This document shows positions 4,250 through 12,404 of a DNA stretch of 36,972 nt, piece after piece. The stretch is taken from positions 38,239 through 75,210 of the forward strand of contig JAHFOJ010000003.1 in the NCBI GenBank assembly GCA_023266875.1, read 5' to 3'. Each line of letters begins with the position of its first letter. Position 1 is the stretch's first letter. Both the position numbers and the translations under genes were made by a program. Under the pieces are notes generated by a model that made no database searches, had not been told where the DNA came from, and worked only from the letters and a program-made list of their open reading frames with translations. The stretch is from Candidatus Giovannonibacteria bacterium (GTDB lineage: Bacteria > Patescibacteriota > Minisyncoccia > JACPKW01 > UBA11713).

Positions 4250-4268
4250 GTCGAGATCGTATCTCTAC
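4250..4268 (-). repeat. REP-like palindrome 1 (GTAGAGATACGATCTCGAC on the minus strand)
   Basis: Imperfect hairpin with GTAG foot; supplies the TAG stop codon of the adjacent RAYT ORF; inverted relative to the copies at 4939 and 4987. Confidence 0.85.
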
Positions 4269-4936
4269 ACATCTTCGAGTAATAGACCTTTCTCGCTTTG
4301 TAAATCCCGATACGACCAATCAATTGCCGAAGTTAGTACATCTTTCGAATTTGGAAATAATTCAGCAATTAATTCTTTATCCAAGATCGGGTCTTTTTCG
4401 CTTGATAAAATTTTTCCAAGGCTGGACCATGGATATTCTGTTATGATTTTTCGCGCGGCATCAATATCATGCATGCTATTTGTTCTCCAATCTGACTGGG
4501 AGTAATCAAGATGATTCAGGTGAATGTAATTAAAAAGATGCGATAGGTAAACTTGTTTGTCGATATGTTTTGATCTGGATCTACCTTGAAATAGAACCCC
4601 GCTGTGATTGTATTTTGCATTGAAATACATGGTATAACCGATAAAAATTTTCTGTAGCAGCTTCGAAAGCTTTACTTCCTCATTACATCGAACAAGTAGG
4701 TGTATGTGATTTTTCATTAATACATAACATATTATTGAAGCCAGCGTGCTTGGTCTTTTATACGCGATTTCGATATCGACTTTAACTCGATTCAAAATAA
4801 GTTTTTTATCTAAATCAAGATTAAAAATGCTAAGACCTTTCAAAAAACGCTGATAGTCGTTTTCATCCAAGAAAATATCTCGTTTTTCAACTCCACGATT
4901 GTAAATATGATAGTATTCACCGCTCGCAAACCTCAT
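4265..4936 (-). mobile_element. REP-associated tyrosine transposase (RAYT / Y1_Tnp family)
   Basis: MRFASGEYYHIYNRGVEKRDIFLDENDYQRFL...YVLMKNHIHLLVR (HxH motif) and a downstream Tyr-containing segment; flanked by REP palindromes. Confidence 0.93.
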
Positions 4937-4938
4937 AT

Positions 4939-4957
4939 GTAGAGATCGTATCTCGAC
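4939..4957 (+). repeat. REP-like palindrome 2 (GTAGAGATCGTATCTCGAC)
   Basis: Same hairpin family as 4250-4268, with one internal mismatch near the foot. Confidence 0.85.
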
Positions 4958-4986
4958 AAAACATTAAAAACAAGGGAAAAACATGT

Positions 4987-5005
4987 GTAGAGATGCGATC
5001 TCGAC
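4987..5005 (+). repeat. REP-like palindrome 3 (GTAGAGATGCGATCTCGAC)
   Basis: Same family, GCG loop; one base different from REP1. Confidence 0.85.
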
Positions 5006-5176
5006 ATGTGCGTGATTATCGTTGTGCGAATTTGACTTTTAGCTTATTTCAATATATAATGCATTGATCTTTTAGCTATGTTGCTAGGAGGCTCCGTTTA
5101 ACGCGGAATGGATAGTTTTTTGACAAAAAAAATAGGAAAAAATAAAAAGAAAAAAACCCAAAAGGAGGGCGTGTTT

Positions 5177-11714: not shown

Positions 11715-11967
11715 AATTATAAGTTTCACGTGTAACTTACTTATTAATCAACTGTTTCACAATAGTTTCACGGCTATTAATTACGGATCTATATGTTGCA
11801 CGTGAAACACATGAACCATGCCTTCTGAAAAAAGAAAACTTGGAGACATCTGTGAAACTATTGCTGTGAAACATCTCGTGAAACACACCTACACGATTAT
11901 TGGTCGTAATTATCAAAAAAAATGGGGCGAGATAGATATAATAGCCACAAGTGTTTCACGTGACACT
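11630..11967. promoter_or_regulatory. Cluster of parS-like sites (11630-11645, 11722-11737, 11794-11809, 11952-11967) plus half-sites
   Basis: TGTTGCACGTGAAACA at 11794 matches TGTTNCACGTGAAACA exactly; the three others share the CACGTG core and GTT/AAC-type arms. Confidence 0.7.
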
Positions 11968-12207
11968 AATAAATTGCACTTTATTGAAGTTAAAGGTGCA
12001 AAGGTACGGCTTGATATAAATGTTAGGCCGGAGGTAAATATGAGTGATTTTAAGAAGAAAAGGTTATGGCGGGCTATACAATCATGGTTTATCGATAATC
12101 CGACTTATAACGAAATCGATTGGCAAATTGATGTAGCGGCGGTATTATTGTTTCCTGAAAGAAAAACAGTAAGGATTAGATGGATTAGAAATATAATTAT
12201 AGAATAA
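11818..12207 (+). CDS. YraN/UPF0102-like endonuclease-fold protein
   Basis: KRKLGDICETIAVKHL...GRNYQKKWGEIDIIA...LHFIEVKGAK. Confidence 0.88.
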   Translation: MPSEKRKLGDICETIAVKHLVKHTYTIIGRNYQKKWGEIDIIATSVSRDTNKLHFIEVKGAKVRLDINVRPEVNMSDFKKKRLWRAIQSWFIDNPTYNEIDWQIDVAAVLLFPERKTVRIRWIRNIIIE

Positions 12208-12254
12208 ATCGATATTTCGGGCTGGAGTATGTTGGTAGTACACCTGCTTCTTGC

Positions 12255-12361
12255 CCAGCCGTATTTTTAACGGAGAGTAGTATAGTGGCAGTACACGTGC
12301 TTTGGGAGCACGTAGTCCGGGTTCGATTCCCGGCTCTCCGACAGAGGGAAAATACAGCTGG
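12255..12361. repeat. Inverted-repeat-bounded segment (CCAGCCGTATTTT / AAAATACAGCTGG) enclosing tRNA-Pro(TGG)
   Basis: Arms 12255-12267 and 12349-12361 pair at 12 of 13 positions; arm shared with 17227-17327. Confidence 0.75.
12271..12341 (+). tRNA. tRNA-Pro(TGG), nested
   Basis: CGGAGAG/CTCTCCG acceptor; anticodon arm CGTGC-TTTGGGA-GCACG; T arm CCGGG-TTCGATT-CCCGG; A73. Confidence 0.95.
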
Positions 12362-12404
12362 ATGAAGGAGCAGGTAGACTGGGTTCGATCCCCAGCAGCC
12401 CGAC

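Follow-up and report, generated by a model that had tools for sequence, protein, structure and literature searches.

The window (the whole stretch of 36,972 nucleotides that we analysed) belongs to a bacterial assembly of 684 kb in 25 contigs and contains an intact tRNA-Pro(TGG) gene nested in the anticodon loop of another tRNA, itself of proline type. The nest lies behind yraN, and its parts, all on the forward strand, are as follows.

11818..12207, + strand: yraN (UPF0102; Pfam PF02021), the upstream gene, which marks a conserved tRNA-Pro(TGG) locus
12218..12249, + strand: 5′ half of the outer tRNA-Pro (acceptor, D arm, 5′ strand of the anticodon stem, TT of the loop); it agrees at 30 of 32 positions with its intact counterpart, the tRNA-Pro(TGG) behind yraN in relative G006
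12250..12366, + strand: inserted cassette of 117 nt, CTTG[CCC...GGA]TGAA, in place of the TG (positions 34-35) of the outer anticodon loop, by comparison with G006
12254..12267, + strand: left arm of the cassette palindrome (CCCAGCCGTATTTT), paired with the right arm in the minimum free energy (MFE) fold
12271..12341, + strand: inner intact tRNA-Pro(TGG), called by ARAGORN (Rfam tRNA model RF00005, 65.8 bits); the sole TGG proline tRNA found in the assembly
12349..12361, + strand: right arm of the cassette palindrome (AAAATACAGCTGG), from the MFE fold
12367..12403, + strand: 3′ half of the outer tRNA-Pro (GGA of the loop, 3′ strand of the anticodon stem, T arm, acceptor, A73); 36 of 37 positions identical to the G006 gene

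The ARAGORN and Rfam results bear out the intact inner gene that a first-pass annotation of this DNA had proposed, and the outer acceptor (CGGGCTG/CAGCCCG), anticodon stem (CCTGC/GCAGG) and T arm that it had described are all present in the sequence. It had also placed an insert of about 115 bp in the anticodon loop; the location stands, and the size is refined to 117 nt against the uninterrupted G006 ortholog. The MFE fold of 12218-12404 leads from the outer tRNA body through a helix of 11 + 5 + 8 bp to the inner tRNA, reproducing the pairing suggested earlier for the flanks of the inner gene, with a free energy of -83.5 kcal/mol (z = -5.8) that none of 200 shuffled sequences equalled. These helices are near-continuous, with small internal loops only, in agreement with the earlier remark that no archaeal-type bulge-helix-bulge is present, and the doubt expressed about a group I intron was justified as well, an Rfam scan of the window returning tRNAs only and 71 of the 117 inserted nucleotides being tRNA. 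In intron mode ARAGORN calls the outer gene tRNA-Lys(CTT) with a 115-nt intron, although its body is that of a tRNA-Pro, an example of how tRNA finders run in this mode can report false intron-containing tRNAs.

Both nest partners occur singly at the same locus

The outer body is assigned to proline by C1-G72 and A73, which match the other tRNA-Pro genes of the genome. Aligned with the uninterrupted tRNA-Pro(TGG) that G006 carries in the same place behind yraN, it is identical at 66 of 69 positions; all three differences lie in loops, and the two outer halves (32 + 37 nt) lack only the TG of the TGG anticodon. In a second relative, G003, the tRNA-Pro(TGG) in this place stands alone and shows 4 differences from the inner tRNA of the window. 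Thus the outer tRNA alone (G006) and an inner-like tRNA alone (G003) are both found at the same locus within the same family. The guanines at positions 8 and 14, previously taken as a sign of decay, are not one, since the intact G006 gene also has G at both. According to the first-pass annotation, uninterrupted functional genes in relatives together with decayed outer halves here would mark an insertion-inactivated pseudogene; the uninterrupted genes exist, in G006 and G003 and at this very locus, and decayed outer halves occur in relatives, the window's own having changed little.

In several relatives a yraN-like gene likewise ends directly upstream of tRNA-Pro(TGG) (for example L005, L008, L012 and L020). 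At the yraN locus of G000 (the window's genome), G003, G005 and G006, which represent closely related genera, the acceptor stems of tRNA-Pro(TGG) differ (CGGGCTG, CGGAGAG, CGGGGAG), as might be expected if alleles were replaced at a fixed locus.

Nests recur across Patescibacteria

Similarity searches of relatives recovered Pro-in-Pro nests in several other families, in which the junction TTCTTGCC...TGAAGGA is constant and the arms and outer stems differ; the junction CTTGCC...TGAAGGA of these Pro(TGG) nests is that of the window's cassette. Isotype-free patterns extended the set to nests for Ala, Val, Glu, Leu, Ile, Thr, Gly, Pro, Met and Arg. Among 323 genomes of the class, TTCACCC..tRNA..GGGCAAG was present in 26 and the arm pattern CGTTAGA..tRNA..TCTAACG in 33. 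A phylum-wide search of 365 genomes recovered the former from 5, four of which do not belong to the class, again with tRNAs nested in their own isotype (Ala, Val and Met). Reversed control patterns gave zero matches in every genome listed in both class searches and the phylum search, which, together with the presence of the same nest in many other genomes, excludes a chance origin. Together with the Pro(TGG) set, the pattern searches yield about 70 nests in Patescibacteria genomes, covering at least ten tRNA isotypes. One bearer from the same class, G141 (contig L108), is Candidatus Sungbacteria RIFCSPLOWO2_01_FULL_47_32, of the Parcubacteria group of Patescibacteria.

A GTDB-wide scan with CTTGCC..TTTGGGA..TGAAGGA gave mostly chance matches, and among the matches listed those holding a tRNA-Pro were all from Patescibacteria (L108, L158, L185). 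The covariance model R1 recovered mostly ordinary tRNA-Pro across the phylum, its top matches showing no nest of the window's type in ARAGORN intron mode, and scans of IMG/VR with the nest patterns gave no nest, the sole tRNA-containing match being a chance hit in an ordinary phage tRNA array.

The window's own genome holds a second nest (L060; G000:C14:49500-49900), where the only tRNA-Thr(TGT) found in the genome sits flush between CCCCGTTAGA and TCTAACGGGG inside a tRNA-Thr body without a T arm; G003 shares a Thr nest, in which the outer T arm is still present. Nests also lie within nests, double or triple nests of one isotype being found at L007 and L372 (Ala), L374 (Val) and L043 (Pro). 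At L007, positions 1660-1970 (G093:C1), a tRNA-Ala(CGC) is enclosed by an Ala-type tRNA that is itself enclosed by another, with identical arms at both levels and the G3-U70 pair of alanine tRNA in both outer bodies. On the minus strand of L043 (G089:C43) lies a double proline nest in which the 5′ half of the innermost tRNA is almost the same as that of the outermost one and looks like a recent copy.

Inner and outer tRNAs are usually of the same isotype

We examined 54 distinct nests, 48 of which retain at least one recognisable outer half. In 42 of these 48 the inner isotype is the closest match for at least one outer half (for both halves in 22), against 13% expected from random pairing; in the other 6 the match is absent. 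Outer tRNAs are often nearer to the inner tRNAs of other genomes than to their own. The inner anticodons often begin with C (Ala CGC, Leu CAG, Pro CGG, Val CAC, Glu CTC, Gly CCC) and thus belong to isoacceptors that are often dispensable.

The cassette stands in place of two anticodon-loop bases

In most tRNAs the insert has the frame TTCA[CCC...GGG]CAAG or its reverse complement CTTG[CCC...GGG]TGAA, with the Thr nests and a few others differing. Joining the outer halves through CA, or through TG in the other orientation, restores a 7-nt loop identical to the cognate one in 19 nests (Val(TAC) regains TTTACAC, Glu(CTC) TTCTCAT and Pro(TGG) TTTGGGA, among others), and in these nests the cassette therefore stands for a dinucleotide of the anticodon loop. 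The CCA-adding enzyme was rejected as a source of the missing CA, since proline nests need TG. The TTCA/CAAG flanks are not a clean target-site duplication, two target bases being gone, and so lend classical transposition no support.

A direct join of the outer halves gives a different result. Only 7 of the 50 nests with a recognisable outer anticodon stem allow a contiguous 7-nt loop with the cognate anticodon, and the window is not among them: its possible joins place AAG, CAG, CTG or CTT, and no proline anticodon, in a proline tRNA body. This bears on the proposal that the nest encodes a split or intron-containing tRNA, from which the inner gene would be excised and the helix-held outer halves ligated into a second working tRNA. 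The long stable helix that joins the halves, acceptor and T arms that are intact in 24 of 61 outer tRNAs, and a distant RtcB-family protein (156 bits) in the window's genome would all suit such a molecule. Against it, besides the rarity of cognate joins, stand the broken acceptors of G141, G047 and G023, the hairpins in D or T loops of several outer tRNAs, and the failure to find RtcB in the nest-bearing genomes G141, G047, G370, G215, G100, G121 and G036, so that the ligase sought at the suggestion of the first-pass annotation has family members in some genomes with nests, a distant one here included, and was not found in many others. Tested with PF01974, the tRNA splicing endonuclease of archaea was found in none of seven genomes, six with nests, and was present in four archaeal controls. 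The first-pass annotation had also proposed to check whether the outer anticodon is otherwise missing; Lys CTT, Gln CTG and Leu CAG are all served elsewhere in the genome, AAG being the exception. Rescue of a missing anticodon was rejected on the same count, the genome having Pro GGG, CGG and TGG besides all the candidate anticodons except AAG. A spliced outer tRNA is accordingly very unlikely, and the earlier idea of halves joined after release of the inner tRNA by RNase P and RNase Z finds no support, there being no proline-anticodon join in the window and the outer tRNAs of relatives often being decayed or carrying inserts.

Outer tRNAs are preserved to different degrees

Acceptor and T arm are fully paired in 24 of 61 nests, including the window's, compared with 1.6% of cross-isotype pairings; in the remaining outer tRNAs stems are broken, arms have disappeared or the D and T loops contain inserted hairpins. 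Such a spread, from intact to ruined, is consistent with relics of unequal age. The window's outer tRNA, whose three substitutions all lie in loops, would be among the youngest. Full pairing could also reflect retained function and not only youth, and some outer halves might still be processed into functional RNA. With no cognate join in the window and damage to most outer tRNAs in relatives, the alternative offered in the first-pass annotation, an insertion-inactivated pseudogene, describes the outer tRNA best. Most hairpins inserted into outer tRNAs (L003, L033, L342, L375, L380, L391 and others) sit in D loops or, behind TTC or TTCG, in T loops, a placement that suggests a TTCR target preference of small palindromes.

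The arms and a multicopy palindrome

The palindrome CCCCGTTAGA..TCTAACGGGG is multicopy in the window's genome (40 half-sites against 4 in the control) and abundant in most of the related genomes examined. Its free copies measure about 35-130 bp and commonly have 4-nt direct flank repeats (for example TTCA/TTCA), in the manner of MITEs. Many nests, including the Thr nest of this genome, use these arms; others use different ones, among them the window's nest, whose arms (CAGCCGTATTTT) differ from the genome's abundant palindrome. Arm sequence varies among genomes and pairing is kept. For part of the nest set the link between arms and a mobile element is strong; for the window's own arms we infer it. 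At 4265-4936 of the window, on the minus strand, a Y1 (IS200-like) transposase gene (PF01797) is framed by TGTAGAGATCGTATCTCGAC palindromes (flanks 4250-4275 and 4937-5010), a repeat family unlike the nest arms. An origin from RAYT/REPIN elements was rejected, the repeats of the Y1 gene being unrelated and the flank repeats of the free palindromes direct, not inverted.

Arm pairing maintained with different sequences is also what one would see if the nest were an ancient, conserved RNA architecture, whose outer halves and arms are kept to aid transcription or maturation of the inner tRNA, and the persistence of the junction motif TTCTTGCC/TGAAGGA where the outer body decays speaks for the same idea. 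However, any given nest type occurs in only a few percent of the genomes of the class, G003 and G006 manage with a lone tRNA at the same locus, and remnants such as L006 and those like L017 have lost one half, which makes conservation for such a role improbable.

Origin and spread of the nests

We consider it likely that the resident gene was disrupted by a cassette with palindromic arms whose cargo, a cognate tRNA, took over the function of that gene, and that the outer tRNA is the relic. On this model the cassette, an intact tRNA-Pro(TGG) between the inverted-repeat arms of a MITE-like palindrome, would have arrived as a unit and entered the anticodon loop of the yraN-linked tRNA-Pro(TGG), where it would have replaced two anticodon bases and so inactivated the resident tRNA, the cargo tRNA assuming its role. 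Transcription of the locus presumably includes the inner tRNA, which RNase P and 3′ processing would then free. An insertion would be tolerated when the cargo supplies the same function, which would favour isotype matches; afterwards the inner tRNA would be the working gene while the outer one decays, so that the allele at the locus is in effect replaced. Patescibacteria would have undergone many comparable events, in almost all of which cargo and target shared an isotype, and repeated rounds would produce Russian-doll nests and replace tRNA alleles in place. The arms would be those of a mobile element, and the cassette may acquire its cognate tRNA and spread either by transposition or by homologous recombination through the outer halves.

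The second of these routes is the core of a variant that differs from the cassette model in the mode of spread only: each isotype gave rise to nests on one or a few occasions, and these were then passed on by homologous recombination of the outer halves with the cognate tRNA gene of the recipient. Isotype match and identical junctions would in that case follow from homology, and not from transposition or selection. The junctions of intact Pro(TGG) nests are indeed all identical across families, the resemblance of many outer tRNAs to inner tRNAs of other genomes is as such exchange would leave it, and the distribution among families is patchy. Yet the arms vary by genome and often match the resident palindrome family, a single flank frame is common to Ala, Val, Glu and Pro despite their different tRNAs, and 70 nt is a short stretch of homology; we regard this mode of spread as a possibility of somewhat less than even standing.

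That the arrangement recurs so often indicates a process, acting repeatedly, in which the break in a tRNA gene and the supply of a substitute are a single event. A bolder reading, which we put forward tentatively, is that the nests represent a new class of minimal homing-like element, in which a palindrome-armed cassette with a cognate tRNA enters the anticodon arm of that same tRNA and drives stepwise allele replacement across Patescibacteria, the outer halves perhaps sometimes yielding functional RNA.

Comparison with known systems

Point mutation, duplication and loss are the usual ways in which tRNA genes are held to change. In the nests, an essential single-copy tRNA gene appears to have been broken and replaced in place by an allele of the same isotype, repeatedly, in many lineages and in very small genomes; if the process is active, it would add a new route to tRNA turnover, and the cassettes might be selfish elements of a new kind, with a cargo that makes good the damage.

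Our literature search for a tRNA inside a tRNA returned a single case, the tRNA-Thr(TGT) of Lak megaphages, whose predicted intron may itself encode a tRNA (Devoto et al. 2019, PMC6784885). As in the window, a complete tRNA lies within the anticodon region of another, and versions with and without the inner tRNA exist; the Lak case is confined to a single phage lineage and is read as an intron, and the account of it in that report, as far as it goes, describes no isotype rule, palindromic arms or recurrence across families (PMC6784885). The same search, whose coverage is incomplete so that novelty is unproven, yielded no description of isotype-matched, palindrome-armed tRNA cassettes.

Some integrative elements enter tRNA genes and restore the end of their target; they are large and integrase-driven, and bring an integrase and further genes. 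As in the nests, the element's own sequence compensates for the damage to the tRNA, but the nest cassettes consist of a complete second tRNA and short arms only. Archaeal split tRNAs and transposing tRNA introns (Fujishima et al., cited in PMC10714607) are, according to that citing account, likewise interrupted tRNAs held by helices, with inserts that move between tRNAs, and need a bulge-helix-bulge and a splicing endonuclease. Here, in contrast, neither was found, and the outer anticodon of the window's nest is not restorable. MITEs and REPINs (for REPINs, PMC3116915) share with the nests the inverted-repeat arms and, for many nests though not for the window's own arms, a multicopy palindrome family in the genome, some copies of which have 4-nt direct flank repeats; unlike them, the nest cassettes have an intact tRNA as cargo, lie within cognate tRNA genes and are flanked by a fixed TTCA/CAAG frame in place of a duplication.
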